Source: Symmetrospora coprosmae (taxonomy: Eukaryota; Basidiomycota; Cystobasidiomycetes; Symmetrosporaceae). Taken from it: a DNA stretch of 36,591 nt. Made by a program: the position numbers and the translations under genes. Of this stretch, positions 14,204-35,534 are shown one piece after another. How positions within the stretch are numbered: position 1 is the stretch's first letter; every line of letters starts with the position of its first letter. The DNA lies in the NCBI GenBank assembly GCA_008802785.1, contig VUYT01000063.1, positions 1 through 36,591 of the forward strand, read 5' to 3'. The notes under the pieces were generated by a model that was not told where the DNA came from, did no database searches, and saw only the letters and a list, made by a program, of their open reading frames with translations.

Positions 14204-15849
14204 TCATGGCAGGCCCATTTGGTAGAAGTCGCCGGCTCCTGTGCTACCATCGTACGCGAAAAGGTTGATAACGGGTGGTTCTCTTCCACCGAGCGTGTTC
14301 AGCGCGTCCTGACCCATGACACCACCCAGTATCGCGCATACGGGCGTAAACTCCATGGCGGCGGTGACAGAGAGGCTTCTGTGGACATTTCCGGCCTGTC
14401 AGCACGCCGTGTAGCAGTCTCGATACAGTCGTAATAAGGTATAACAGCCACTTACTCCAATGTCTCGCTTGGGAGGAGACCCACATCAGCAACGCCGTGC
14501 TTGGGCAGGATGTCTCTCCCTATTGTCTGGAGTTCTGCAAGGGCTGAATCGCTGGCTGGCAAAGCGCCATCGTGTCCTGCTTGGAACTCCCACAGCACTG
14601 CAGTGAGAGTCGAATGTTCAGCTAGTGCACTGGGTCGTCTCGAAGCGGAGGTACGCGGGTGTGACCAACCTAGACTCGCCCACAGCATCGCATTCATCTT
14701 CTTTTGCTTCTTTGCGCTGATCGATTTGAAGTTGTGCTGGAGCGCTTGCGTAAACGGCACGAAAGTCTGGTTCTTCTTGACTGTCACCTTGCTTGCCTCT
14801 GTGCTCGCAGAGGCTCCATCTTTCGGCTTCTTGTCTGTTGCCGGCTTCTCTGTCATCTCGCTGGCAGCGGTCGCAGACGTGCAGTCTAGTCAGCAGACAA
14901 CGCTTTCGCCAGATTGGGAAAGAGCTAAGAGGACACACATGATCCATTCGTGTTCCAGCAGGTCTGCGAAGATGTAGCCGTTGAGGCCATAGCTTCCACA
15001 GGCATAGAACTTCTTGCCCAGCTTGCGGCAAAGGTCGTTGACACGGATCTAGGAAAGAAAAGCTCAGTCAGCGCATGCCGTTGTCGGCTCGTCTGGACAG
15101 TCAGGAAAGGACCGACTATCGTATCACGGTCGGAATCCGTCAGCACGATAAGATCGTACGCTTGTAGTGCGGCCTCGTCGTGCAAGTCTTGCATCCTCGT
15201 CGATGCTACGATTTCTACGCGTGGATTCAGCACGTTGATCCTTGCTTTAGCCGCAAAGACGCGCTGAAATGGACATGCAGGAGAAGGTAGAGAGGCCAAG
15301 GACGAAGTCAGCGCAAAGCGCCCTTGTAAGGCATGGCACGACTTGCAGGAGGAGGAGGCATCTTGCTCATGGTGAGCTGGGCCTACCTTCTGCCCGACTT
15401 CCTCCTCGCGCAGGAAGAAGTTGGCGCCGAGATCCTCTTGGGAGATGTCCTTATCGTCGAGGATGGTGAGCTTGCCGATGCCAGCGAGGACAATGTTCTT
15501 GCAGACCTCGGCGGCGAGACCGCGAAGCGTGACCACGAGAACCGAAGCCGACCTCATCCTGGGCGAAGACGAGGGAGGCTTGGACCGGATCAGAGCAGCT
15601 CTCGACTGATATCTCGTGTCGTGTGCTTGCCTGTTCTGAGCCTCGACACCCCAGAGCCTGATCTGTCGGTCATACAGGGCAGCCTCGTCTTGACGCGCCG
15701 CCAGGATCCTGCGTCAGCCCTTTGCCTCTTACCCGTCTAAAAGCTATCAATGCAAATATGCTACCTTCCGTGATGCCGCCATTGCTCTGCGAAGGCTGTG
15801 GCGCTGGTGCTGACGTTGACGCTGCCGCGGCTGCTGGTCCTGCCTCCAT
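14204..15849 (-). CDS. AOS1: SUMO-activating enzyme E1 subunit AOS1 (SAE1)
   Basis: Eight exons: complement(join(14204..14378, 14456..14597, 14670..14860, 14939..15048, 15117..15263, 15387..15558, 15631..15688, 15765..15849)), 359 aa; introns 68-123 nt. Landmarks across the joins: ITEDEAALYDRQIRLWGVEA, then NRMRSASVLV, the nucleotide-fold strand IVLAGIGKLTILDD, the EDLGANFFLREEEVGQKR block, VLTDSDRDTIIRVNDLCRKL, FYACGSYGLNGYIFADL, and the C-terminal ILGGVMGQDALNTLGGREPP. AOS1 pairs with UBA2 to adenylate SUMO; the catalytic Cys is in UBA2, as expected none is seen here. The second intron uses a GC donor (AG|GCAAGC), the only non-GT donor I found in the window. The start codon is followed by an Ala/Pro-rich leader before ITEDE. 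Confidence 0.95.
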
Positions 15850-17439: not shown

Positions 17440-19223
17440 ATGGGCACTTCTGCAACAGCAAAGCGCAAGCGGCCACGCCTCCTGGTCCGCCTTCCCTACT
17501 ACCTCCTCCTGGTCGGCCTCAGCTTCGTCTACTATGGCTTCGTGCGTTTGATCCGCGTCGTCCCCCAGCGACCTGCAAGCGCCCCTTTCACGTGCTGACC
17601 AAGGCGCGTCGACAGGTCGTGTCCATCAATGTCAGATGGCTCATCCTGCGGCAGCACCGAACCACTCTAGCGTTTGTGCTTCTCAGCATCTTCCACGCCA
17701 TCTTCGGCATGACCCTCTGGAGTCTGGTGGTCTGCGCAGGCAGAGGACCGGGAGCTGTTGGCGAGCGCATGAACGAAGTCACATTGACATCAGCCAGCGG
17801 ATCGCACCGTGGTCGTGGTTCCCAGGATGAGAGGGACCTGGAAGGAGGAGAAGAAGCTCCGCTGATGCCCGCGGAGCAGTCTGCCGAAGATAATGCATCC
17901 GGGCCACCTCAGCATAGGCGACGACGCAGGCGCCGCAAGCAGGGCAGCGGGACCGCTTCAGCTGGCCGCTATAGCCCTGCAGTCACAGAAGAGGATCCCG
18001 AGGAGGCCGGCGCATCTGATCACCTGGAGATGCGCCCTAGCTCGTCTTCGGAAGACGAGGATGACGGAGACGACTCGGAGACTATCTATGGCCCAGAAGC
18101 AGGTGCCAAGGTGCAGGTCATCTATCCTAGTCAGCGAGATGCTCCACAGCAGCAACACGAGGCCGGATCTGGGACTCTGATGGCAAAGGCCAATGGCAAG
18201 GTCCGCTTTTGCCGCAAGGTGAGTCTCCTTCGGGCCTGTAATACGTCGAGGCGGGCGGTAGCGACGTGCAGAACTAACTCCTCCAACTGCCCTTCGCATG
18301 CTCAGTGCAACCTCGTCAAACCCGACCGCGCGCACCACTGCTCGACTTGCGGATACTGCATTCTCAAGATGGACCATCATTGCCCATGGCTGGGCGGGTG
18401 TGTCGGCTTTGCCAATTACAAGCCATTCATCCTCTTCCTCATCTACGCAGCCCAGCTTGCCATCTTTGCTGGTAGCGTCTCGCTTTGGTCACTTGTCCAG
18501 GTCCTCGATGTCGATTTGGAGGAGCTCGGCCTAGCACCCCTCGGCTGGGGCTTCATGATCCTCTTCGGCTTCCTATTCTCGTTAATGCTATCGGGCTTTG
18601 CCCCTTACCACCTCTACCTGGCCTGCAACAATCGCACGACAATCGAGAATATGGAGAGGAACGGTCGCCTTCTATCGTTGCCACCGAAGGCAGAAAGCAT
18701 GTTGGCAGCCGGAACTGCCGACCCCATTTTGGCGAGCCTTCCGGAGCATTCCGTCGCTGGTGCAGGTCAGCACCTGCTAGCGGACTCGTCGCGCGCTCCG
18801 AACCCTTTCCTTGAGGAACAGCAGCAGCATGCGCACAGCACCGGAGGGAGAGCCAATCCGTTCCTACCAGCTTCTACTCGCTTCGATGAGCACTCAAGCG
18901 TCATAAACGCGCAGCCGACTTTCGCCGGTCCTTCAGCTTCGTCGAGCAACTACCCTTTCAACCTCACTTCGCAAGCGATCCTCACCCGCCAGGCTCGTCG
19001 CGCTCTCGAGAAGCAGGCAGGCCAGATCAACATCTACGACCTCGGACTCTCCTCGCGCAACTTTGAGCAGGCATTTGGCAGCAAGTGGTATCAGCCGCGA
19101 AGCTGGATTCCTGTTGGACGAGGTCTCGGTAGCGGCTATGCTTGGCCGGTCAATCGAGCCAAGCTTGAAAAGCTGCGAAGAATTAATACTGAATTGCGCA
19201 AGAGTCGTGATGGAGGGATATGA
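17440..19223 (+). CDS. DHHC palmitoyltransferase (Pfa3-like)
   Basis: join(17440..17541, 17616..18218, 18306..19223), 540 aa; introns 74 and 87 nt. A basic N-terminus leads into transmembrane segment 1 (YYLLLVGLSFVYYGF) and segment 2 around LAFVLLSIFHAIFGMTLWSL. A disordered acidic/Arg-rich loop of about 140 residues follows. The Cys-rich domain then has CNLVKPDRAHHCSTCGYC and the catalytic DHHC at residues 258-261, with GGCVGFANYKPF after it. Segments 3 and 4 follow, then a tail with NIYDLGLSSRNFEQAFG, typical of this family. It S-acylates cytosolic cysteines of membrane-associated proteins; the Pfa3-like label (vacuolar, Vac8 acylation in yeast) is a guess from overall layout. The second intron is a multiple of three, so an unspliced reading stays open; splicing is preferred because it restores RFCRKCNL. 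Confidence 0.88.
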
Positions 19224-19415
19224 TGTGTGCACAGCATTTCTCTGACCGCATTGTTGTTGCTACATAGGTCTTCGCTGGTTTTCCCCAGCTGAGAGAGCGA
19301 AATGGCGCGGCAAAGCACGCTCGCTGCAGGTGTGCGCGTTTCTTGCAATCTCCTGACATGCAGCTGCATGCACTCTTCTCTCCTGCTTAGTTATCTTGGT
19401 CGCTGAGGGCATGAG

Positions 19416-22400
19416 TCAAAGCTTCCTCCTCTTTGGTGACATCTCTGATTGTCCCCCGTTTGCGTTCTCGTCCGCGCTGTTGATGTGGGCTGCGTAGGAG
19501 TGTCCCTGCCCTTGGCCAGGCTGGGGAGCCGCAACTTGCTCGCACTTCGATAATCTGCGGAGACCTCGACTGCTGGATTTAGCCCCGTAGCCGTGGTTTG
19601 TTTTGTCACGTAGCGTTGTCAGGGGCGCGACTGGGGCGTTGACAGCGCCTGTGCTGGTCTTCGGCTGACTAGCGTCCGGAGTAACGGACTCCAGCTCGTC
19701 CAGCGACCGTGTCGTCTCGTCCTGGTAGCCGATGTCGTTCGCGGAGACTTCGTATGCATTCGATGTGCGCTGCATCGAGGGCTCCGGAGTGCGGTCGAGA
19801 TCGTCGGAGGAAGGAGTGTTAGAGCCGTAGAATAGGCATTGTGCGGCAGGAGGGGCCTGAAGATCTGGGTTGGTAGATGGACTAGGCGGTGACGGCGGCA
19901 AGCCGGAGCCCGCTGCAGCTGTCCTTGCGTGGACAACCTCCCTCTCTGCTGCTAGCTCGCGGTCGGTTGCAGTTTTGGATGCGTTCATCTCATAGCTCTG
20001 CTGATCTGGTAGCCCGCCCGTCAAGGTCGCACCAACCAGAACCCTGGACAGGTCCGTTAGAGGGCTGGAGATGGTCGGACCTACGAGGACCGCTGATAGA
20101 TTTGTCAGAGCGCGGGAGACGCTTGAGTGCGTTGCATGCGACTCGTGCATCTCTCCTGTCTGTCCCTTCGCAATTGCTGCTTTGGAGCTGCCTGCAGTCG
20201 CATCAGACTGACCGGGCGGTCGAAAGTGACAGCGATCGTAGATCTCTCTGGCTGGAAAGACCGGCTGTTGTCTTCGCAAATCGAAAGGAATAGCTTGAAC
20301 ACCACGATTAGCGTTTGGACCTTCCCCCGATGTTTCGTGATGGCTTTCCAATGTCTGCTGGATGGCCGAAAGTGTTCTCGAATGTCTGGTCGGCGTCGGT
20401 ACTTTAGCACTCTGTGTGACCGGGTGACCGAACGCTGCAGCCTGCACCCGGATTGTGCCCTTCTGAGCGTCGGCTATCGCTGGCACCAGGACTCCGAGGC
20501 CGGGCAATTTGGTACCTGCCCGTTGGGCGGCCGAGCCGTTCTGCTCAGAAATGGGTTCTTCTCGAGCGTCGGAGACGGAGACGAAGGCTCCTCTAGCTTG
20601 CTCTCGCTCTTTAATAGTGCCTGTTTGTAGCTTTCCCCTATTCTTGTTCTTCTGCTGCAACTCGTCGCGTTTGGCCCGTGACCTTTGGTGAGCGAGGCTA
20701 ACGGCTTCACACTCGGCCTTTGATTCCGGCGGCGGGCTCGGCGGCACATGCTTTGCACTTCTGCGTGCTCTGAGTTCACGAGTGCGAAGGCGCAGGAGCT
20801 CAGCCAGCGCTCGTGCGATGTATGTATGTCACTCTCCCAGCGAGCAAGGGGACTCACTGAGTGATGGGAACAGTGGCAAGAGGGACATGCCCCTCTGGTC
20901 TGCCCTCATTGCGAAGTTCCTGCTTCTTGCCTCGTTTGCTAGTCTGCTGGGCCTTCTTCTTGATTCTGGGCGGCTCCAGCTCCTTCTTTCTAACGGTTTC
21001 TGGGCCCCGCTCCTCGATTCGGACTGCGTCGGCGCGCAACTTCAGGTCACGCAAGGGTATCATCCGAGAGGTCTTGCTCGAAAGGCGGAGTGAGTCTTCT
21101 TCGTGTTCCTCCTCGAGCTCAAAGTCTCCCACCGACGGCGAGTGAAGTGGAACACTGCTCTGATCGTTGTAGCTCTCGTCATCGATAGGATCTGTCTCAT
21201 CTTGACCAGCGCTTTGCACCTGCCCATGCGAGCCGCTTCTCCCTGCCTCCTTCGTGGGTGTTGCGGTATCTGGTTGTCTGGCTGCCGCGGGCTGCATGGC
21301 AATTATACCTAAGGTAAGCTTCTTGTGTCCTTTGCGCGCCGGTTGTGCGTCGAAACGGATAGCCCGATACGCAAAACCCGCGCCAGTCTGTGGAGGACGA
21401 TAGTAGTTTATCACCTTTCGCGTATTGCGTGATGTATGTGCCTTGCGCGAGTTATTGGCGCTTCGAGTCGCCGATCGCCTGGGCGTCTGCGGGTTCTCCC
21501 CGTGATTGTGATCTTCTTCAAGGGCATCGTCGTCTCCGTCTGCCGAGTTGACGTCCCCATGCCGAGGCCATTGAGACACGGCATCATCGTGCTGCGGGAA
21601 CGCATCGGACACATGGTTGTCATGGTCGCCCTCTTGAGCCTTGGTACCGGAGTCGGCGCGCCGCAGACGTCCGCGCTTCGGAGGCAATGCAAGCTCCGAG
21701 TCTCCGATGAGATCCTCTTCTTCGCTGCTGTCACCGTCTTCGGAGGATGATCCGTTCCACAACCTGGCTGCCACGGCGAGTATCGGGACAGATCTCAGAT
21801 CCTTCTTGCTGCGGGTGCGGTGAGCTGGGCCGTGGTCAGACAGGGAGGAAACGTCGTCCAGATCCATTCCTTGCGCATGTCCCTTCTCCTTTTGATGCTC
21901 CTGTGACTGTTCCTCCGCCTCCTCCGGCTCGCTAGCGCCCCTTTCCTCATCGACATTATCCCCATTCTCGGGGTCGCGAACCTTGTTGGCCTCGGATGTG
22001 TTATGTCCAGATGCGTCGCCATCGTTGCTAACGAGCCGAACCCTCATTACTGCATCAAGTTTGACTCGGTCCTCTGTGCGCCGTAAGCGGGGTATGTTTT
22101 GTCCGCGAGAGTACCACCTCGATTTGAATCTCCTGTCCCGGGTGTCCTTGCCTCTGCTGACGTCACTTTCTTCACCGACACTTCTGTCTGTGTCTTCATC
22201 GGAATGTTCGCTCGTCTGGGCGTCGAGCCCCGCCTTCATCACATCGCCTTGCTGAATGGTCAGGGCAGCGATGTTGGGAGGAGATTCGGCAACAGGCTGG
22301 TTGCCTCCGTCATCAGGGTAGTGAGCAATCCCATCGTGCCTGCAGATGTCATTTGGCAGTGGACGAGCGGACTGGCCTGGCGAGCCTAATGCTGGGAGAA

Positions 22401-22869
22401 GCAGCGACGGACAGAGGTGTGTAGCGAGCTGTGCACTGTCAAGCAGCTCAGATGGTATGACGGTCGAGAAAGGGAGCCTGTCCGTCTCGAGGGCTGGAGC
22501 TGGGACGTTCCCGGAAGGAAGGAGTGATCCAGAGCGACGGTCCCGCGACGAAGGTCCCGCAGGCGAGTTGCGGGCTTCATCGAGCGCAGCTGAACCTGGT
22601 GCGAGGTTATGGTAGAGGTGGGAAGGGCCGTTTGCGCCTAGCTGTGGGTCCTGCAGCTCGGGTTGAGGCGGGAGCTGAGGGGTGTTCACCGCGGCCACTT
22701 TCTTCTTACGCTTCTCGAGAGGACGGGGTCCAGTCTTGCCCTGGAAGCCGCGATGATTCACTGGCGGAGAAAATGCTTGAGACGGCTCAATGCCGCACTC
22801 GGGGGAGCTGAGAGGGGAAGAGGTGAGGAGACGTGATGGCGGATGCTTCGACGGGGTTGACGACCTCAT
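19416..22869 (-). CDS. Large disordered, probably nuclear protein, 1121 aa
   Basis: complement(join(19416..20769, 20858..22869)), one 88-nt GT-AG intron that keeps the frame (VPITQARRSAKHVPPSP). I recognise no domain. Composition is Ser, Pro, Glu, Asp and Arg, with acidic clusters such as DGDSSEEEDLIGDSE and short basic clusters such as TRSKKD, KRGRLRR and the C-terminal SPKRRKL, a good nuclear localisation signal. The only ordered-looking stretch is near VINYYRPPQTGAGFAYRAI and the following KGHKKLTLGIIAM. Two imperfect repeats, LTNLSAVLVGPT and LTDLSRVLVGAT, lie close together in exon 2. A chromatin, kinetochore or transcription role is possible but unproven. The start ATG at 22869 follows a 5-codon upstream ORF. 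Confidence 0.65.
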
Positions 22870-23255
22870 CGTCAACGGTCGACGGGCATGCTCGGGTTAG
22901 GGGGCTGCAGTGTGTGCGAGATATGCTGTATAGCAGATGGTGCTGATGAGTGAGTGGTGTGGGAGAGAAGAGGAGAGAGGACTGCGGCAGCGGGATGCGG
23001 GTGAGGAGGAGGAGGGCCCCTCGGACCTCCGCCCCTGGCTGACGCGCCGGACCCGTGCTGTACCTGAAAATTGCGGAGGAGGCCCATGCGCTTGCGTGGG
23101 CCCGCCAGATGGTCGAAATGTGCTCTACAACAACACAAGCTGTAGCGAAATAATGCTCACACTGCGTCCCGATGCGCCTTCCTCTGCGAATGATATGCGC
23201 TAACGCACTGGACGGCCTCTACGATGAAGCCCGCGACACAGGCTCGCGCACCTTC
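22870..23255. promoter_or_regulatory. Leader and promoter of the 1121-aa gene, with short uORF
   Basis: This is 386 bp between two minus-strand genes. A minimal upstream ORF (MPVDR then stop, 22889 to 22872 on the minus strand) ends 2 nt before the main ATG, a spacing suited to termination-reinitiation control. The rest is GA-rich on the plus strand near 22960-23010 and shows no gene. Confidence 0.4.
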
Positions 23256-24415
23256 CTACTTGTCCTCCGGCTTGATGGCTCCGAAAAAGTAATTGCAGCT
23301 CTTTCGCAGCTCTCTGAGCACTGAGGACTGCTGCGGGTCGTCCTTGGCGAGTAGAGTCCATTCGCCATTCCAGGGCGCATAGGTGGTTCCCCTGACTTCG
23401 ATGTTGGCCCTTGCGCTTCTCTGGTCGGGAGTGAGATGCCCTGATGGAGCAGCTGCACTCGCATTCCAGCCTAAGTCATTCTCCACAAAAGCAATGAGCT
23501 CGTCCGGTTTGATGAACTGTGAGAGGGTGTGCGAGCCGGGCGGCGCAAACTTGAGCAGCGGCGACTCTGCGAGCTTGATGACGACAAGATCGGCGAGTGC
23601 AGTGCGGGAGATGGTCGAGAGGATGAGGTGGCCTCCGGGCTGTACAGGTCCATCAGTCAGCGGTGCTCTGAGCTCGGCAGCGTTCAGCATTAACCCACCT
23701 TGGTTAGGTCCGCAAGGCAACGGAGGAAGCTTGGCGGGTCTGAGACGTGCTCAATGACTTCCATGGCGCACACAATGTCAAACTGCTCCTTGCTGGCAGA
23801 TGTCGAGCTGCTCTCCGTTGGCTCCGCTGCATGCAGGAGATTTTCAGCTGCTGAAGCCCGGTACTGAAGCTGACCGCTCTCCATTAATGAGAAGAGGTGA
23901 GGATCTTGGGAGGCATGCACGATTGCCGTCTTTACATTCTCCTCGGATGCATCGATGGCGACGGTCGTTGCTCCGAGACGGGCGAGGCGCTGCGAATACC
24001 GTGAAGCGAGCGGGTGAGCCTGGACGTGACCAGTTTGACAGGTAAGTAGCGCGGCTCTCACCTCCGCAAATAAGCCACCACCACACCCGACATCGAGCAC
24101 TCTCTTGCCCTGGAGGAAGCGCGGTCCTTGGATCTTGAGGAGCTCGGCTTCCGCATCGGCAGCAATCTTCCGTCCCTGAGCGACCATGGCGAGGCGCTCC
24201 CTGAGGAACTCGACGCGCACAGTGTTCATCCGTTGGAGTACATTGAAGTCGCCTTGCTCGTCCCACCACGTCTTGCTGAGCGAGGCAAAGTGCGAGACCT
24301 CGTCCGGGTTGATTGTGCTAATGCATCGCCTGTTGCGGGCGGCGGGGGCACGACTTGCGAGAGAGCGCCGCGCCAGTGTCCTGAGGCTGCTCGAGAATGC
24401 TGTGCTGTACGACAT
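23256..24415 (-). CDS. COQ3: COQ3, ubiquinone biosynthesis O-methyltransferase
   Basis: complement(join(23256..23639, 23699..23989, 24062..24415)), 342 aa; introns 59 and 72 nt. The first 35 residues (SSLRTLARRSLASRAPAARN) are an Arg/Ser-rich mitochondrial presequence. The mature start INPDEVSHFASLSKTWWDEQ is typical of COQ3. SAM-binding motif I, VLDVGCGGGLFAE, sits at about 106-118; motif II is TTVAIDASEEN, and the post-motifs are CAMEVIEHVSDP and GGHLILSTISRT. The enzyme performs both O-methylations of coenzyme Q synthesis at the inner membrane. The C-terminal part carries a DLGW segment and ends in CNYFFGAIKPEDK. The first intron lies directly after motif I. It is divergent from MVP1, sharing a 140-bp promoter. 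Confidence 0.95.
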
Positions 24416-24555
24416 GGTGTTTGCAGTCGTTGCGGTGTGGAGGAAGGAGAGAGCTTTGGGTGCAGCCCGGACGCGCTCAGGACCGACCCCTCGTGATCGC
24501 GAAGCCGATGTGTCCCCTCTGTCTCTATCCCTCTCGACCACGCTGTATTGGCAAG
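24416..24555. promoter_or_regulatory. Compact bidirectional promoter, COQ3 / MVP1
   Basis: Only 140 bp separate the two start codons, so the genes must share regulatory sequence. A pyrimidine-rich run on the plus strand at about 24511-24540 (CCCCTCTGTCTCTATCCCTC) precedes MVP1. No TATA box is obvious. Confidence 0.5.
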
Positions 24556-27250
24556 ATGCAGTCGAGCAGCAGCTACCGAGGAGGCGTGTTCCCTTCCTCC
24601 ACCTCCTCGTTCGAGTCTCCCCGCTCCTCCAACCCTTTCGCGTCCTACTCTGTCCAGGACAACCCGCTGAGCGGCCCGGCAGCGGGGCCAGCGTCATCGC
24701 CCTCGACGAGCGCGACCGGGGCGGGCGCCTCGAGCTACTACTACGGCAGCACCACGGACGGCAATGGGGCAGCAGAAGCAGAGGATCCATGGGCTGGCAG
24801 CAGCTACTATCCGTCTGGCAGTGCTGCTGTGACTGCTCCGGGTCCCCAGGCCGGCTCAGCCTCGAACAGCGGCAAGGGCACCTCCGTCGCCACGCCCGGA
24901 CAGGCCGCCGTATCCGGCCTCCTAGATGAGAGCGCACTGCCAGACATCTACCACCAGGCATGGCGGGCAGCTGTAGCGTGGTCCCCGGCAGCTTCGACAG
25001 GATCCACCTTCTCCGGCGCCTCCCCGACTTCAACCAGCTTCCTGAGCCTGCACAAGACGCTCAGCGCTGCTGCAGGCCTGTCCGCCAGCGACACAGAGAG
25101 GGTGGGTGTTTCGTCCCGCCGTTGACACACAGTGCTCATCTCCTGCGCTCTGTCGTCCCAGATTGCCAACCTCGTGTCGAGCTCGGCAGCCAGTTTGCCC
25201 ATCTCCGCCTCCACTGGCAGCCTGGCAAGCGGCCCTTTCCCCGGAGCAAGCAGCTCGCCCACAAAGGCGCCAGGCGTGCCTTCATCATCCTCGCGCGTCA
25301 CCAAAGCCGAATACTATGTCGCTCTGGCTCTCGCCGCTCTAGTGCAGCAGAAGCAAGGTGAGCGGAGTTGCATGAGACGTGCGAGTGCATGGGACGTGCG
25401 AGCGAGACGTCAACCGCTTCAGCTGACCAGCTTGTTGCCAATAACCCTATACAGCCATGAGTATCGAGGCCGTGGCAGCGCGTCGCTCCGACCCACCAGT
25501 GCCAACGCTCGACCTTTCCTGCTTCAATAATGGCAACTCTCTTTCGCATCCCTCGCCTCAGCGACAGCCGTCCTTCGGCTACGCAACCTCGCCGACCCAG
25601 ACAAGGACCCACAAAGTCTCGCAAGCTTCGTCGAACGATCCTTGGGGTTCGGGAGCGAATGGGAGCTACAACCGCGCGCCAGCCTACTCCCCTTCCACAG
25701 GCCTGCACGGCGAGAACCCACTGCCGTCTGACTCGACATCTCGCCTGCGCCGTTCCAGCAGTACAAACCCATACTCTTCCTTCCCACCTTTTGAGGAAAG
25801 CGAGGGCGGCCTGGGAGAGACCAGCTCGCTGGGTGGTTACGACCAGACCTCCCCGCCGTCAATAGTGTCGTCGCTCGGACTGCCACCCTTCTCGTCATCG
25901 AGCGAATTTGTTCGCGGTCTGGACAGCATCACCGTCCTGCAACAGCACGAGCTAGCCGGGACTTTCCTCTCCCGGCACACTGTCTATGTCGTAGTCAGCG
26001 AAAGGCGGCGGACGAGTGTGACGCGCAGATACAGTGATTGGATATGGCTTCACGAAGTGCTCGAGAAGAAGTACCCGTCGCGAATCAAGATGGTCTTGCC
26101 TCCAAAGCGCGTGGGGAGTGAGTCAAATGGATCCCGATGACCTGTCTATGCATGCTTCAACGGCTAAGCCACGACGGACACAGTTTCAGCTCGACACCTC
26201 CAGATTGCATCGGACGAGCAGTTTCTCGAGAGAAGGCGGCGAGGCCTGGCGCGATACCTAAGCTACGTTGCGAACCACCACGCCATGCGCAACGAGCGCG
26301 TCATCAATGTCTTCTTTAACGTGGATCAGGACCTTTCCACCTGGCGCAAGCAGAACCCAGACATGGAGACATCGGACGAAACGCAGTCTCAGCGGCTCTC
26401 TTCGGCACAACTATCTTCGGTCCCTACGAATCTCGAGACCACATTGGCTACGCTGCGCGAAGCGCTTCCTGCAGTCATCGACTCGAGCAGTCGGCTATGC
26501 GCATTGCTGGAACGGGTACATCATCGCAATCTAGCGAGCGCGGCAGACATGCTGCGCGCCAAGATGTCGCTCGACTCGTACGGGGAGATTCTTGCGGGAC
26601 TGAGCACGGGACATGCGCACGCTGGGCGTCCAAAGGAGGTTGAGGAGGAATGCCTCGTTCTTCATCGGGACATGCACAAGTTCTCAGATGCGCTTGGCCA
26701 CCTGGCCGAATCGGCCGAAGTGCGCAGTATCGAGTGGGAGAACGAGAGCCTCGAGCGGCTGAAGCTGCAGCGGGAGGTATGGAAGGGCTTGCTGGGGCTG
26801 CTGGACCGGTACGAGCAGCGCCTACGGCACGACGCCGTCGACAAGACCAAGAAGCGCATCGAGGCCAACCAGACTCGATTTAAGGCGCTCGCGTCGGCAA
26901 CACCCGAAAGCCGGAAAGCCAACTACGACGAAGAGGTGCGCAAGCTGCTCAAGAGCATCGAAGATGACCAGGACCTTGTCGAGAAGGCGCTCCAGCGGCG
27001 CGAGTACCTGCGCTACTCGCTTGCTCAGGAGATTCGGTGGACGTGGCGATGGAGCACCGTCCTGAGGGTGGACCTGTCAAACTGGTCCGTCCGGGAGAGC
27101 GAGGTGGGTGTCACGTTGCCTTGCGGCTGGGGTCGGTAACAAGCGTGTGAGCTGACTGACAACTTCGCGTGCTCTCCGCGTCGACAGTATCAGCAGCGGA
27201 TCACGCGTATGTGGGCGTCCCTGGAGAACGCGCTGGCGATACAGGAGTGA
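24556..27250 (+). CDS. MVP1: Sorting nexin MVP1 (SNX8 homologue)
   Basis: join(24556..25101, 25162..25357, 25455..26117, 26184..27103, 27188..27250), 795 aa; introns 60, 97, 66 and 84 nt. The disordered N-terminus contains an EH-like region with LPDIYHQAWRAA and AEYYVALALAALVQQKQ. The PX domain (about 400-520) has ITVLQQHELAGTFLSRHTVY, TRRYSDWIWLHEVLEKKYPS, then LPPKR, which binds PI3P. After it, FLERRRRGLARYLSYVANH leads to a long helical BAR-like region that ends EYQQRITRMWASLENALAI. MVP1 tubulates endosomes for cargo retrieval to the Golgi. For the third intron, either the first AG (exon at 26184) or a TTTCAG 6 nt later fits the phase, giving a two-residue uncertainty in a loop. Confidence 0.9.
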
Positions 27251-27741
27251 GGCGTGGCGGAGACGATGTGCACGCGAACATATGTCTCCCACATGTTATT
27301 GACCCGCAATGATGGAAGGCGAAGGACAGCCTTTCTGCAGCTGCAGCAAGGTTGCATCAACCATCATGCAGACGCGCGAATCCCCCCCCCCCCCCCAATT
27401 TGCCACCGTGCTCGGCACGCGCCTGGGCGTCCGCAAGAGTACGTCAAGTCCATGAGGGAGTAGGACTGCCGTAGAGACTGTACTTTGCCTGATCTCCTAT
27501 GAGGTCGTGCGTGCATCACTTGTCTCTGTGTCCTCGGTGCTGTTGCCCCTGTGGCCCTCTCCTCTCCCGCTCGCTGCTCGCTGGTCCAAGACCAAACAAG
27601 CTGGGCCCAAGGCGGTGGAGGGAGGGCGGAAATCGACCCAGAGAGAGGGAGATGCGCTCTCGGGGCTGCCCTTCCCTTTTGCCCTCCGTCAACCCCTCTA
27701 TCAGTGACAACCTGCAGAGCAGCAGCAGCAGCATCGTCACC
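27251..27741. promoter_or_regulatory. Intergenic region with 15-nt C tract
   Basis: This is 491 bp between MVP1 and ROT1. A run of 15 C lies at 27382-27396. The ROT1 leader is CT-rich and contains a CAG run (GCAGAGCAGCAGCAGCAGCA) just before the ATG. An open frame that continues upstream of the ROT1 ATG from 27499 is judged leader, since it lacks a signal peptide and its codons do not look coding. Confidence 0.45.
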
Positions 27742-29332
27742 ATGTACACCATCCCTTCATCATCATCCTCCTCACCACCGCGGCGGACCCGGCGGTCTCG
27801 GACGACGCTCGCCCTCGCAGCGGCAGCAGCAACAGCCGCGAGCCTGCTGACGGCGACTCCAGCTGTCGCCCAGGATCTGACTGGCAACCTCACCAGTCTG
27901 ACGGGGACGTGGTCGTCTGGCACGGGTGCTGTCCTCACTGGTCCAGTGAGTGGTCTCTCTGTGTCTGTCACCGCGCCCGACTCCCCATCCCATCCCTTCA
28001 AGGCGGCGGCCAGCGCACTGGGCGATGCCCCCTCCACACCTGCCCGCCCGCGCGTCTCGGTCGCCTCGCACGGCGCGCCCTTTTCAGCCGGGCAAAGACA
28101 GCACAGCAGCACAACGCAGAGAGGAGAATCGGCAAGGGGCCATAGTAGCATGAGCACCTGCACGACGGAGATCGCTGCGAGAAGCCACGCTGGGTCGCGG
28201 CAGCAGACGTGACGTAAAGGCTGTCGCGGTCTGTCGCCGCTAGCACTGTCGGCGGCTAGAGTGGCTCGCAAGTAGGCGTTGTCGACCATGAGCACCATGG
28301 ACGGCATTCGCTGTGCATGGGCGAAAGAGAAGACAGTGCTCGAAGCGTGCACTAGGACCAGGGCACTGCAGCGTGGACGATCTGTGCTCAGCTGCGGTGT
28401 CCTCGCTCGGAAAGGAAGCCCATTCCACCATCAGCGCCCAGCTGTACTCCAAGCGTCGTCACTACCCGCACACCCTCTCGCGCCGCCATCGAACTATCTC
28501 ACGCAGAGATTCCTGTCACACCAACGCTGACGCTCCATCCCTGTAACTTCTGCAGGGCTTCGCGCAACCGACAAACTTCACCTTCACTTACCCCAACAAT
28601 ACAGGAATTGCCATCTCGTTCACAGACGATGGGCACTTCGAGGAGGCGCAGTACCGCTTCGAGTCGAACGGTGCGTCCTTTCTGCTTGTTTCTTACACTT
28701 GGTGCGAGACTGACATGTCGTGCCGACTACATAGGCACGGAGCCGCGTTGCGTGAAAGCCATCGTCATTTGGCAACATGGAAACTACACCATTCAGGCCA
28801 ACAACGTACGTGTTGTCAAGGGTCGTGCATGCTGACTGTTTGCAAAGCTGACCGCCTCGTTTCGGCCGCACGATTTGCAGTCCATCACTTTTTCGCCCAT
28901 CGAGTCTGATGGACGTATACAAGTGCAGGATCCGTGTGCAGCGGAGTCGAACGTCATCACATACTACTACGAGCCAGCGTGAGTGCAGACGGTGCTCATT
29001 CTGCTTCATACTCCGGAACTGACAATGTTGTTCGATTCGCTGTTTCCGCTCGGAACAGTCTGTACGCTGGATGGGCAATCACGAATGACCTCAACCACAA
29101 CCGGTACATGCTGCAGCTTAATCGATTCGACGGCTCGCTCTTCCCCCGGCTTTACCTGTGGTACCGGCCGCCTACGATGCTTCCTACCGAGCAGCTCTGG
29201 ACGACTGCTGCATACCAGGCGTACGAGAAGGAGCGGGGTGCGGCTGGCCGGAGCATGAGCGCCAGTATCGGCCTCGATCTCTTGGCAGGTGTCGCATTCG
29301 GCGTGGTCGGTCTGGTATGGTCGCTGCTTTAG
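27742..29332 (+). CDS. ROT1: ROT1, ER chaperone for cell-wall and membrane proteins
   Basis: join(27742..27945, 28556..28670, 28735..28805, 28881..28978, 29059..29332), 253 aa. A basic N-terminus and Ala/Leu stretch (TLALAAAAATAASLLTATPA) form a signal peptide or anchor. Family blocks follow in order across the exons: LTGTWSSGTGAVLTGP, GFAQPTNFTFTYPNNTG, FTDDGHFEEAQYRFESNG, IVIWQHGNYTI, DGRIQVQDPCAAESN, LQLNRFDGS and PPTMLPTEQLW. The C-terminal hydrophobic segment (LLAGVAFGVVGLVWSLL) is a membrane anchor. Rot1 assists folding and O-mannosylation of glycan-synthesis proteins in the ER. The first intron is 610 nt, far longer than the others here. For the fourth exon I chose the acceptor at 28880 (75-nt intron, giving SITFSPIESDG) over an earlier AG that would leave a 42-nt intron. 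The ATG context is CACCATGT. Confidence 0.95.
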
Positions 29333-30120
29333 AGGGGCCCGGACAGCAAGGGCGGGCTGGAGACTGCCGCATTGCAGGAGGAACAGAGGCGGACGATATG
29401 TGCCGCGGCCCTCTATCTCATCTTCGACACGCACGGACAATTGCAGTACCTTCCATCACTCTGGCCGCACATGGCCGGCCATCTCCGATCCTTTCCTGTG
29501 GACGCGATATCGTCCCCTTGGCGCACCTGTGCGCTGCACAGCGGTGTCTCTTTGCCGACACAACTGGACGCACCTCCCCGGAACCTTCCACCTGCTCCGC
29601 TTCCCTTCTGTCGCCCTCCTCCCAGCGCGACTTGGTCAGTCTCTTCTGCGACACCTTGACTTCCTCCATCCCTCTCCGCACGTCGGCCCGTCCAGACTTT
29701 CTGGCCCCCGTCCTCACGCCCTGTATTCACGTAGATCTGTCGTACCGTTAATGAGCTTGAGACGCATCCGAGTGCGCTGCCTGGTTGCTGCTCTCTATCT
29801 CCTTGTGCATGGCCGCCACTCAGCGGCACAGCGCCCGGACCTGGTACCACAGACCACCTGGGTGGCTCTCACTCACGTAGGCAGTACGTAGCTTCGTCAG
29901 CTTGCTCAATACTCTCTTGTCTTGGTCGTGCCGTTCAGTTTGCGACGGCCTTGGATGAGCGTGTTGCCTGGCGGTTGCGCGTCGTGGGTCTCCTCGACCT
30001 AGGACTCGTCCACGGCCAGCCTCTGCGTCACTCCACGACTTCTCGGACGACGTATCTCCATATCCCAGCCCCAACTGCACCAACAGAGCAACAACCCCGT
30101 TATCACCTTATCTGCTCAGT
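29333..30120. other. Intergenic region ROT1 / PRE7, no supported gene
   Basis: This is 788 bp. The only ATG-started frame with any character is a 46-codon ORF at 29751-29891 with a hydrophobic start (CLVAALYLLVHG); it is too short to support. The rest holds the ROT1 3' end and PRE7 promoter. I see no repeat or RNA gene. Confidence 0.4.
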
Positions 30121-31363
30121 ATGACTGCCCGCGTCCTCGCCCCCTCCTCGAATGCCCACGACTCTGGCAGCGTCATGGTCGGGCACCGCAGCTCGGCCGC
30201 AGCGGGACAGCCGTCAATGAGGCGATTCGATCCTTACTCGGTGCGTGAGGCCCCCACCTGGCTAGCTTTTGTTCTGGTAACAGAAGCGCTGATCGTCCTC
30301 TCTCACTCTGTCCTCCTGATGCTGCTCTGGCGTTACCGCTTGTTCGCGTGCGGTGCCTGGCTGGCTGGGATGGCTGCGTCACCCCTTCCCCCTGCATGTA
30401 CACCCCGACACCCCGAACAGGACAATGGCGGAACCATCCTCGCAGTCTCGTCCAACGACTTTGTCATTGTCGCATCCGACACGCGCCAGTCTGAAGGCTA
30501 CTCGATCCAGTCGAGGTACACGCCGCGCCTCTTTCCCTTGACCCAGACCACCGTCATCGCAGTGCAGGGGTTCCAGGGCGACGCAGACACGTTTGTCAAG
30601 CGCCTGCGACAGAGACTCGAGGTGAGTCTGCCTGCCGTTCAGCACGGGACACGTCAGATTGATAGCTGATGTCCTTCATGTCTGTCTCTACCACCGGACC
30701 CGACCCCGCCCCCTTCGCTCGTAGTGGTACACGCACAACCACAACAAGGAGATGGATCTGCCGGCGATCGCTCGACTCGTCCAGACCATGCTGTACGGCA
30801 AGCGCTTCTTCCCTTTCTACACTTACGTCATTCGTGAGTCCAGCGCGCTCGACCTGCGTCTCCGATTGCGCTAGCGCGTCTGATCTCAGTATCGCGCACC
30901 TCAGTCGGAGGCATCGACAGAGATGGTACGGGCGCCGTGTACTCCTTTGATCCCGTCGGAAGCTACGAGCGCGAGTCGTGCCGAGCAGCCGGTGCAGCCC
31001 AAAGTCTGGTCCAGCCCTTCCTCGACGCTATGGTGCGCCTACTCTGCGTTCTGCCTGCATCAGAAAGCCTGACCTTTCAATGCTGATATCAGTCATTGGT
31101 GTGCCTCATGTACACAGGTCAATGGTAAGAACCAGATTGCGGCACCGGGTGCACCGCCCATCAAGAACGCAGAAGGGCGCTCTATTCTGCCCCTTGACCG
31201 GGTCCTCGGTCTCGTCACGGACGCATTCACGGGCGCGACAGAGCGAGAGATCTACGTCGGTGACATGCTCGAGATGTACATTGTCCAGGTAAAGCGGGAT
31301 GCAGACGGGAAAGCCATTGGAACGGAACTGGGCGTTCTCCGGAAGGCATTGAAGCAGGATTAG
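30121..31363 (+). CDS. PRE7: Proteasome subunit beta type-6 (PRE7/PSMB1)
   Basis: join(30121..30240, 30421..30621, 30725..30833, 30905..31032, 31118..31363), 267 aa; introns 180, 103, 71 and 85 nt. The N-terminal 35 residues are a propeptide-like leader. Then RRFDPYSDNGGTILAVSSND begins the beta fold, followed by VIVASDTRQSEGYSIQSRY, KEMDLPAIARLVQTMLYGKR, LGGIDRDGTGAVYSFDP, and LVTDAFTGATEREIYVGDML. Beta6 is a non-catalytic ring subunit; the usual active-site Thr1 is not expected and not seen at the mature start. The C-terminus ends VLRKALKQD. The 180-nt first intron is a multiple of three without stops, so retention would insert 60 residues at the start of the fold. Confidence 0.95.
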
Positions 31364-31773
31364 AGATGAAGGGGAGAGAGCGCAATGCTGTTGTCGATGC
31401 GAATGTGCTGTAACACTGTAGCTGCCATACCGTGCTGATAAAGCTGGCCCTCGCATTCGACCCAAGCTGTTCGGTATCTTTGCGTTACAGCATGCCCTTG
31501 TGCGACTACCAAGCGTTGCCCACGACTTTTTGCCAGCAAAGCATCACTACAAGTACGACGAAGATTGAGAAGGGAGGAACGACCGCACAGATGTTGTGCA
31601 AATGGTATGAGGCGCACGAAAGCGTTTGCGAATGATGGTCGACGCCCATGTATCGGAGCAACGGCAAACGAAGCATGAAAGGGCTCGAGGTCTTCCGGGC
31701 TTAGTCCTCCGCGACTGCGAGACGCAAAGAGAGTGTCAGCTTCCGCCTGGACGAGGAATGCTACTAGCCCATG
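31364..31773. other. Convergent intergenic region PRE7 / PCNA
   Basis: This is 410 bp between converging stops. It must carry both terminator/polyadenylation regions. I see no gene, repeat or strong poly(A) signal. Confidence 0.4.
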
Positions 31774-33337
31774 CTACTCGCTCTTGGGAGCCAGGTAGAA
31801 TCGGATCGAGCCGCCTGCCCACTTGTACTCGACCTGGAGAATCCAGTAGCTTGAGTTAGCTACTGCGTGCTAGACGAGTGGCGTATAGCTAGATGCGCCT
31901 GGACTCACCAGCAGAGGGACGTCGTTGCTCATCGAGAGGATGACCTCGGTAGCGAGCGGAGTCGACTTGGCAAAGTTGTTGAGGTACTTGATGGAGAAGT
32001 TGAGCGCAACGGACGATGCGACCTGAATCACGACAGAGCGCTCCTCCTCTCCTTCTCCCCCCTTTGCCTTCTTTCCCTTCTTTTCGGCAGTCTTCTTGCC
32101 CTTTGCGGCGCTCTTCTTGTTCTTCCCGTTTCGAGGTGCCTCGTCCTCCTCATCCTCCTCATCGTCCTCATCCTCGTCCTCATCTTCGTTCTCTTCCTCA
32201 TCGCCACTCTCATCCTTGACATCGGGCTTGACGTCCTCGTCGTCCTCGTCCATGTCCTCGTCGTCGCTTCCCTCGCGCTTGGTCTTCTTGTTCTCCTTCT
32301 TGACCTTTGCCTTGCCCGCGGCTCCTTTCTTTGCAGCGGCGGCTTTGGCAGAGCCGGCCGGCTTGACCATGACGCTTCCCGTTCCAATCTCCCCCTCGGC
32401 GGTGAACTTGACGCAGTCGGGCTGCGCCTCGATCTTGACGCTCTCTCCGAGGTCCTTGAGGTCGCGCATGATTTTGGCGAACTCGGCCGAAGGCATCGAG
32501 ACGGTGGCGTCGTAGTCGGTGTCCGGGATACCGAGCTGCTCCGAGTCGATATCCATGAGCTTCATCTCGTACTCTCCGATCCGGTCGGCGCCTGTGAGTG
32601 CGGGCAAGAGACGGGCCATCAGCCTCTGTGCAGCAGGCGGACGGCGTCGAACGATCGGAGGATCGACGTTACTCACGCTTGCCCTGGAACGTCAAGGTGA
32701 GGTTATCTGCGTCCTCATTTGCCGTGATCTTGCAGCTGTCGTCGTTGTTGGCGCACTTGATGATCTTCTGGAGCGAGGCGAGGTTCATGCCGAGCGTCAT
32801 GTCCCTGTCGCATCGGAACTCGCCAAAGGCCTCCTTCTCGAGGTGAAGCGAGACAAGGGCGACGTGCGAGTTGTCCATTGCTTGGAGTTTCTGTGCGTGC
32901 AGTCATTGCGAAGTGCCAAAGTCAGTCGATGTCGCGGACAGAACGAGACGCGACATGGCAGCGGGACAGGGTAAACGCACAATTCCTTCTTCGCTGCAGT
33001 CGAGGTTTGCATCGGTGACAAGCTCCTTGACGGCTGTGTCGAAGGAGTACACGCAGGATGGATCAGCTTCAGGCCCATTCTCTGCATCGACGCGTCGTCT
33101 GCCTCTGCTCTACGCGGTCAACCCGCCCGGGCATTGGACGGGCGGAACAGCAAGAGGAGAGAGAAGGGACCGCCATCTCACCATCGAGGACCTTCTTGAG
33201 CGTCTCTGCCTTCTCGAGTGTGGCTTCCTGTGGGCGGTGTGCGTGCAGAGGGTGTCAGTCATCTCCAGGTCGACGCGTCTCGTTTTCGCTCGAGCGGCCC
33301 CTCGTCCAAGGCAACGACGGCTTGCACTCACAAACAT
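31774..33337 (-). CDS. POL30: PCNA (POL30) with an expanded charged loop
   Basis: Six exons: complement(join(31774..31833, 31909..32591, 32677..32890, 32981..33033, 33182..33227, 33332..33337)), 353 aa. Introns are 75, 85, 90, 148 and 104 nt, and the first coding exon is 6 nt (Met-Phe). Conserved blocks: MFEATLEKAETLKKVLDAV, KELVTDANLDCSEEGIKLQ, AMDNSHVALVSLHL, FRCDRDMTLGMNLASLQKII, EYEMKLMDIDSEQLGIP (interdomain connector), MPSAEFAKIMRDL, FSIKYLNNFAKSTPLATEV, SMSNDVPLLVEYK and the end RFYLAPKSE. PCNA is the trimeric replication clamp. Two things depart from the family: position 164 is Pro (bases 32419-32421) instead of Lys, and residues about 183-291 form a charged loop where relatives have about 12 residues. 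All splices restore conserved sequence. Confidence 0.97.
32040..32364 (-). other. Charged insertion in PCNA loop (about residues 183-290)
   Basis: Within PCNA exon 5 the strand ending GTGSVMV is followed by about 108 residues before VVIQVASSVALNF resumes. The order is Ala/Lys-rich (KAAAAKKGAAGKAKVKKENK), then nearly pure Asp/Glu (DEDEDEDDEEDEEDE), then Lys/Gly-rich (KNKKSAAKGKKTAEKKGKKA). The frame is open throughout, and no donor near the left edge resembles the GTGAGT-type donors used elsewhere in this gene, so it is translated rather than spliced out. Its reverse strand gives a spurious Leu/Ile/Val-rich ORF. Confidence 0.92.
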
Positions 33338-33815
33338 GGTGTAAGGAGGGTGAGTGGATGGATGCAGTGGCTGTTGGGTGCTGTGAGATGGCTCAGGCTG
33401 GCGCTTGTGCTTGTGCTCTGTGGGTCAAATGGGTCAGGAGGCAAGCAACCTGCCACACGCGCTCAAGCGAGAGAAGGCGACGACGCGCTCAGGCGGACAC
33501 TCTCTGCGGGCAGGGGAGCCGCGTCCATGGCGGGAGGCGGGGAACTCTGCGAGCAAATGATATCATAACAAGCAAAGCAGGCAAGGAGAGCAGCATGGAG
33601 GAAGGATGCACTGGCATTGATCTCGAGCACTTCTGCTAGCGAGCGGAAGAATAAGGGGTGATGCTAATACAACGATGGAGAAGAATGAAAAGGTGGGCGT
33701 CAAGCCTGGTTGACTCGCTACTTCTGCTGTACTGCTACCGATACTGCTTGATGCGACTGATGCGGAAGGAAGTGTCGTAGTGCGATGTGATGTGGTGCGA
33801 GCTGGATCGTTTCTT
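33338..33815. promoter_or_regulatory. Intergenic region GH5 / PCNA
   Basis: This is 478 bp holding the PCNA promoter and leader and the 3' side of the GH5 gene (both minus strand). I see no gene. A search for MluI cell-cycle box-type sites (ACGCGT) by eye found none that I can be sure of. Confidence 0.35.
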
Positions 33816-35534
33816 TCAGTAGGTCCCGGACCTGACGATCCTCCGTCCAGCCATGTGCTGTCCAACCGGCTGCTGCTGCTGCTGGCGGTGCCTCTTGACC
33901 CTGGAGAACCTGTTCTCCGCATTGCTGGCCGACTGCACTGCAGTCTTGGCAGCAGGTACGCCAACCTGTGGCGAGCTCGGTGACTGCTTCCTCTCCTGGA
34001 GGTCCCTCTTCTTCCACCAGGTGCCCGTCGACCACCCGTCGCCCAGGACTCCCCAGCTCTCCTCGTCCGTCCAAACCTCAAAGTCGCTGCTGCCCTTGCC
34101 CGGCTTGACAATCTCCCAGTAAAGCCAGGGAATGCCAGCCTGGGCAAGTCCCTCGGCAAACGCCTTGATCGTGTTGGCCTTGTTCCAGCCCATGGCGCCC
34201 CACTCCTCAAAAAGGATGGTCTTTCCGTAATGTGCAGCTTTGCCCTGCGCACTGACGAGCGCAGCGACGGTGGTACCCGCAGACGTGCCGTAGTCGTGGA
34301 CCGAGACGATGTCAAAGTTGTCGCACTCAAACGCCCAATCCTCGAGCGAGAGCGAAGTGGTCGTGCCGCCGCCCGTGGTGATCTTGATGTTCGAGTTGGA
34401 CGGGAGATTCTGCTTGATTCGACCAGCTCGGTCGCAGTTCCAGCTCGTGCTCACTAGGCCCATGTGGCCCATTGGCTCGTTCTGTGGCTCGAAAGCATAG
34501 ACGACAGAGTCCAGCTGCGACCAGGGCTTGTTGCCCATCAGCGTGTTCTTGTGCTTGAGAATGTCTGGGGAAGGAGTGACACTGTCAGTTTGGCTGTATC
34601 GAATCGGTCTATCGCGGGCATAAGATGACTCACGCTCAATTCGCATGTCGTAATTGTATTGCGCGTCGTTCGACGTGTAGAAAGTGGTCGCGTCGGCGAT
34701 CCTCTGTGCGCCAGACCCTCCTCCAACAATGCCGTACTGGTATGCGTACTGGTCGGTATCCCAGTAGCCGAGCGCGTAACGGTCTCCGCAGGCAATGATG
34801 AGCTTCATGCCGCGCTCCTGCACCTCCACCATGAGCTGGTCGATGAGCTTGAGGATAGTGTCGTCGTACTGGCCGACACCCCACTGCTCAAGGTCCGGTA
34901 TCTCCTTATTCCCACTGCCCTTGTTGTTGTAGTAGATGTGCGCAATGAAGATCCGGACCATCTTCATGCCTGAGTTCGCCATGGCGTCCAGCACGGCTAC
35001 TCGGTCATTCTTGGGAAGGGCATAGAGGTAGTAGGAGTTCGCCCCGACATAAAAGTCTGGGATATCGGCCCCGCTCTGTGTGGGCTCGGGAGTTGCAGAG
35101 CTGGTGGTCGTCGTCCGTGCCGCAGCCGTACTGGTGGTCTTTGCCGCTGTGCTGACGGCTTTTTTGATTGTGCTAGTTGCTGCCGAAGATATGGGCAGCT
35201 TGCTCCGTGCGATGCTGCTTGTGCTCGTCTGGACTGCGACCCGGAGCTTTGGGTTCGCCAGAGTTCGGTTGGCGGCTTTGCTGTTCCGGACAAACTTCAG
35301 GTCGATGGACGTGGCAGTCACCTTTTCGAATGTCGTGGTCACGCTCGCTGTTGAGTTCCTACTCGTGGATGCCGCAGAGATGGGGATGCGGGAGGTAGAT
35401 GCAGCTCGCGCAGAGGTTGAGCTGCTGGAAGGGCCGCTCAAGGCTTTTGCGGATGTAGAGGCGGACGATGGTGCAGCACTGCTCAATGCCACTGCGACTG
35501 CCAGGACCATGGCGAAGTACGATTGCGTGCGCAT
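33816..35534 (-). CDS. Secreted glycoside hydrolase family 5 (mannanase-like)
   Basis: complement(join(33816..34564, 34634..35534)), 549 aa; one 69-nt intron. The signal peptide is MRTQSYFAMVLAVAVALSSA. A Ser/Thr/Ala-rich stretch of about 130 residues follows, a likely O-mannosylated stalk. The catalytic barrel starts at FYVGANSYYLYALPKNDR and includes MKMVRIFIAHIYYNNKG, then VYAFEPQNEPMGHMG with the acid/base Glu330, VSVHDYGTSAG, and the nucleophile in TILFEEWGAMG (Glu420 or Glu421). This layout resembles fungal GH5 mannan endo-1,4-beta-mannosidases; substrate is inferred. The last 60 residues are basic and Gln-rich (RHRQQQQQP) with no membrane anchor, which is unusual after such a domain. 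The intron is a multiple of three but splicing gives RIEHILKHKN and fits consensus ends. Confidence 0.85.
   Translation of the reverse strand: MRTQSYFAMVLAVAVALSSAAPSSASTSAKALSGPSSSSTSARAASTSRIPISAASTSRNSTASVTTTFEKVTATSIDLKFVRNSKAANRTLANPKLRVAVQTSTSSIARSKLPISSAATSTIKKAVSTAAKTTSTAAARTTTTSSATPEPTQSGADIPDFYVGANSYYLYALPKNDRVAVLDAMANSGMKMVRIFIAHIYYNNKGSGNKEIPDLEQWGVGQYDDTILKLIDQLMVEVQERGMKLIIACGDRYALGYWDTDQYAYQYGIVGGGSGAQRIADATTFYTSNDAQYNYDMRIERESSYARDRPIRYSQTDSVTPSPDILKHKNTLMGNKPWSQLDSVVYAFEPQNEPMGHMGLVSTSWNCDRAGRIKQNLPSNSNIKITTGGGTTTSLSLEDWAFECDNFDIVSVHDYGTSAGTTVAALVSAQGKAAHYGKTILFEEWGAMGWNKANTIKAFAEGLAQAGIPWLYWEIVKPGKGSSDFEVWTDEESWGVLGDGWSTGTWWKKRDLQERKQSPSSPQVGVPAAKTAVQSASNAENRFSRVKRHRQQQQQPVGQHMAGRRIVRSGTY

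Follow-up and report, generated by a model that had tools for sequence, protein, structure and literature searches.

Proline at residue 164 of a fungal PCNA and candidate SUMO-type lysines near the site and in the back-loop insert

The PCNA encoded in the window, by which we mean the whole stretch of 36,591 nucleotides analysed here, carries a proline at residue 164, where the clamps of yeast and human have the lysine whose tagging controls replication past damage, and the best reading of the data is that the K164 site has genuinely been lost in this protein. In work on DNA damage tolerance, K164 counts as a fixed point. A fungus living without it would be a natural K164 mutant, which would show whether the residue itself is needed or whether any modifiable lysine on that face will do, and whether RAD18 and the ubiquitin-binding polymerases persist once the site is gone. 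The loss is rare and well checked and the candidates for a replacement lysine are suggestive but not strong; the damage switch may have been either rewired or lost.

The PCNA gene and its residue 164

The PCNA gene lies on the reverse strand (33337-31774). On the basis of the spliced translation, Pfam and the PCNA chains in the PDB, it was modelled, from the one assembly in which it was read, with six exons (33337-33332, 33227-33182, 33033-32981, 32890-32677, 32591-31909 and 31833-31774) encoding 353 amino acids. All five introns have GT..AG ends, and the protein contains both domains of a sliding clamp, PCNA_N (E 2.3e-49) and PCNA_C (E 4e-40). Exon 1 (33332-33337) consists of just six bases and encodes Met-Phe. 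To judge by the density of introns and by the insert in the loop, the source is probably a basidiomycete.

The original prediction that residue 164 is Pro (CCC) instead of Lys was borne out by direct counting in the spliced translation, which places the codon at 32421-32419 on the reverse strand, and by alignment: residues 1 to 183 or more were gap-free in the five displayed PDB alignments, with the proline facing Lys164. The protein does not have the lysine at 164 by which the K164 switch is defined. A misalignment was ruled out by the lack of gaps, and a splice error by the position of the codon, 170 bases inside exon 5. Conversion of AAA or AAG to CCC takes three substitutions, and among all combinations of a one-base deletion and a one-base insertion within codons 158-170, none restored Lys at 164. 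For these two reasons, a simple sequencing error, against which the prediction was to be checked, is a poor explanation of P164. A sequencing or assembly artefact at this codon, for which the use of a single assembly leaves some room, is very improbable in view of the same two results and of the intact reading frame. As there is no lysine at 164, no isopeptide bond is possible there, and we infer from the sequence that neither ubiquitin from Rad6-Rad18 nor SUMO placed in the Siz1 manner could be attached at this residue.

Lys was present at 164 in all 11 distinct PDB chain sequences displayed (eight natural proteins, including those of A. fumigatus, N. crassa, C. albicans, L. vannamei and human); 71 to 102 sequences were matched per search, and the best five of each search were displayed and compared. 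We take the PDB entries 3k4x and 4hk1 to be the PCNAs of yeast and Drosophila, respectively. The homologue scans of genome contigs and viral contigs matched L001 and L002/L003, the latter two being one contig, and no recognisable relative of this fungus was found in them. L002, a one-intron PCNA gene whose product has no insert, also keeps Lys at 164; by sequence it is probably fungal, since 6qh1 and 8gj5 are its closest references (63% and 61% identity, respectively), and its source may be a chytrid or a gut fungus. The gene (2918-3792) is AT-rich and eukaryotic, and lies beside phage-like-looking ORFs on the IMG/VR contig IMGVR_UViG_3300010980_000172, which is probably chimeric or contaminated. 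L001 (266-586) is an animal-like PCNA exon on a contig titled as a Methanobrevibacter MAG, probably a eukaryotic contamination, and is silent on residue 164 because the match spans residues 74-160. A review reports K164 to be conserved in 15 of 15 fungal PCNAs (PMC9225081), and another paper calls it highly conserved (PMC4477661). No report of a PCNA without K164 was found in the open-access literature as judged by the titles and starts of abstracts listed, which makes this a weak absence.

The rest of the clamp

In a comparison with five references (L002, 6qh1, 8gj5, 4hk1 and yeast), 64 columns were invariant among the references, and the window PCNA departs from them at nine (F28L, L79I, T89K, E104Q, S155G, K164P, E165D, D174E and T304N). 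Residue 164 is the sole lysine lost among these columns; the neighbouring E165D is not odd, Asp being found at 165 also in human and N. crassa. The identity of the window PCNA to the references is 43-54%, compared to 36-68% among the references themselves, and this normal divergence argues against a general decay of the gene. That the window PCNA is a diverged second copy, with a canonical Lys164 copy elsewhere in the genome, is quite unlikely in view of this divergence and of the intact six-exon structure, and most fungi carry a single PCNA. A tblastn search of the protein against the 36,591-nucleotide window returned its own exons and one chance-level match (4836-4768, E 8.3), and no second copy in this stretch.

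With S. cerevisiae Pol30 and human PCNA the protein shares both PCNA domains, the near-C-terminal LAPK, K13, K20, K77, K117, K168 and G178, whereas it differs from them by P164, a gained K159 and a back-loop insert of 106 amino acids. It also differs from yeast at K127, where it has Gly, as do three of the five references. K168 and G178, both kept here, are said in a review to be required for the interaction with Rad5 (PMC9225081).

Exon 5 alone was modelled using AlphaFold2 from a two-sequence alignment; the best model reached a mean pLDDT of 54.8, compared to 34.4 to 40.3 for the remaining four. In the best model, the turn that holds residue 164 (163-166) connects two strands (157-162 and 167-172) and belongs to a block with a pLDDT of about 79. 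Proline is probably tolerated in this turn, and the fold would then remain intact. A Foldseek search with the same model (pLDDT 54.8) gave 50 displayed matches, all of them PCNA entries or complexes, with E values of 3.7e-8 to 3.6e-7 and TM scores of about 0.4. No PIP or APIM pattern was found when the window PCNA was scanned for motifs.

The back-loop insert and its SUMO-type motifs

The insert in the back loop (P-loop) comprises residues 185-290 (32041-32358, reverse strand) and consists of a K-rich arm, an acidic block and a second K-rich arm. The claim that a lysine-rich insertion accompanies the change at 164 held up, as 23 of its 106 residues are Lys, next to 23 Glu and 17 Asp. In the AlphaFold2 model it appears as low-confidence coil except for a short helix (187-193). 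Its codon use resembles that of the core (AAG for 21 of 23 lysines versus 18 of 20; GC3 0.73 versus 0.83). The open frame by itself says little, because three further frames of this stretch, one forward and two reverse, likewise lack stops. A retained intron was considered and rejected on the grounds that the insert is in frame, has core-like codon use and has a precedent in C. neoformans. Short, inexact repeats occur in the DNA of the insert; their periods range from 6 to 21 bases, and they would be compatible with growth by slippage.

The C. neoformans PCNA (Q5K7Y2), to which the comparison was made by its published description, is reported to carry an insert in this loop (183-195) that is longer than 80 residues and that the other species compared there do not share (PMC9225081). 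Judged by this description, the window PCNA, with its 106 amino acids from residue 185 on, resembles the C. neoformans type in the site and large size of its insert. The same source gives the C. neoformans protein Lys at 164 and Thr at 168 (PMC9225081), whereas the window PCNA has lost the lysine at 164 and kept that at 168. The loop insert is hence a known kind of PCNA variation and the loss of K164 the rarer part; because C. neoformans reportedly has an insert in this loop yet keeps K164, a causal link from insert to loss is weakened.

Nine motif types were scanned in the PCNA protein, and four psi-K-x-[DE] motifs of the SUMO type were found: VKIE (K159), VKKE (K204), VKPD (K228) and VKDE (K232). 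The first one (residues 158-161; 32428-32439, reverse strand) has its lysine five residues before P164, at a position occupied by Thr, Thr, Val, Val and Asn in the five references. K159 falls in a predicted strand and may, to judge from the model, be poorly reached; it appears to lie on the outer side of this strand, residues 158, 160 and 162 being hydrophobic or small in the window PCNA and in the references. The other three motifs, two with Glu and one with Asp, are located in the probably disordered insert: VKKE at residues 203-206 (32293-32304, reverse strand), and VKPD and VKDE back to back as VKPDVKDE at residues 227-234 (32209-32232, reverse strand), followed by an acidic run. A KEN tripeptide at residue 205 overlaps VKKE and is a possible candidate degron by its sequence.

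The insert holds three valines, and all three start a psi-K-x-[DE] motif. Simple shuffling of the insert gave an expectation of 0.33 motifs compared to the three observed (P 0.002), and in block-wise shuffling, with three charge blocks drawn by eye, one of 20000 shuffles reached three. When only psi-K-x-E was counted, the insert held two motifs (P 0.011). In the core, one motif was found versus 1.0 expected, and the count for the whole protein (4 versus 2.2 expected, P 0.17) is not unusual. The motif is short and unspecific: 6qh1 and 8gj5 match it at K53 and K91, and yeast at two sites, one of them K127 (LKIE), and it was absent from L002 and 4hk1; three of the five references were without the back loop in the text scanned. 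According to the review cited above, yeast PCNA is modified with SUMO at K164, the main site, through Siz1, and at K127 with Ubc9 only (PMC9225081). As the pattern misses yeast K164, consensus alone does not decide SUMO sites. K127 of Pol30 offers a parallel, since consensus-motif modification by Ubc9 alone is what we propose for VKIE159, VKKE204 and VKDE232; unlike in the window PCNA, the yeast motif is at another position and K164 is still the main site.

Fate of the damage switch and neighbouring genes

The explanation that we favour, with confidence just short of even, is that the K164 site has truly been lost and that SUMO has moved to some of the lysines 159, 204, 228 and 232. Under this explanation, the core of the replicative clamp would be ordinary apart from the exchange of Lys164 for Pro in the hairpin turn, and Ubc9 would place SUMO, without an E3, on the psi-K-x-[DE] lysines 204, 228 and 232 of the insert and perhaps on K159. 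The damage-tolerance polymerases might then, more speculatively, be recruited via direct contacts with PCNA or via ubiquitin on other lysines. A broader version, in which the switch has left the ring surface and SUMO, perhaps together with ubiquitin, is placed on a disordered, charge-blocked loop instead of on K164, is rather doubtful; if true, template switching and translesion synthesis would be decoupled from an address thought to be fixed from yeast to human. The original idea that modification moved to the loop is supported in part, on the side of the sequence: the three SUMO-type motifs of the insert go beyond what its composition predicts, but the motif is short.

It is also conceivable, though unlikely, that the fungus has dispensed with ubiquitin and SUMO signalling on PCNA and has reduced or lost the RAD18/RAD5 branch, the insert being an unrelated appendage that is neutral or contacts DNA. 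Yeast and mice survive with a K164R mutation, and no invariant lysine other than 164 is lost; the C. neoformans protein, for which both an insert and K164 are reported, indicates that insert and loss need not be linked, and the SUMO-motif count of the whole protein is in the usual range. Such a plain loss is at odds with the concentration of SUMO-type motifs in the insert and with the retention of K168 and G178, although it may be the ring itself that requires these two. The pol eta of the smut U. maydis is listed in a further source with a ubiquitin-binding UBZ and without a PIP (PMC8784325). This counts against plain loss only if a kinship with smuts holds; were the fungus a smut relative, a UBZ kept on its pol eta would favour a ubiquitin signal somewhere.

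A relocation of ubiquitin as well, with Rad6-Rad18 or another E3 modifying K159 or lysines of the insert so that the whole switch sits at a new address, is improbable. The insert would offer 23 lysines, and a new lysine, K159, stands five residues away from the former site, apparently on the outer side of its strand; on the other hand, Rad18 is strongly specific for K164 and the sequence bears no sign by which a ubiquitin site could be recognised.

Among the neighbours of the PCNA gene in the window is an E1-enzyme-like gene (ThiF; 14925-15700, reverse strand), a partial gene model based on Pfam and PDB matches, with an upstream exon seen. Its PDB matches to ubiquitin E1 (5.9e-12) and to SUMO-activating enzyme subunit 1 (1.1e-11) are inseparable by score; the small size suggests that it is perhaps the small subunit of the SUMO E1 (AOS1), and an ORF at 14452-14856 (reverse strand) may be its 3' end. 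The region 17709-35534 further holds Pfam matches to a DHHC palmitoyltransferase, a methyltransferase, which we guess to be COQ3, PX and Snx8/Mvp1 BAR pieces, a proteasome subunit and a GH5 glycosidase.
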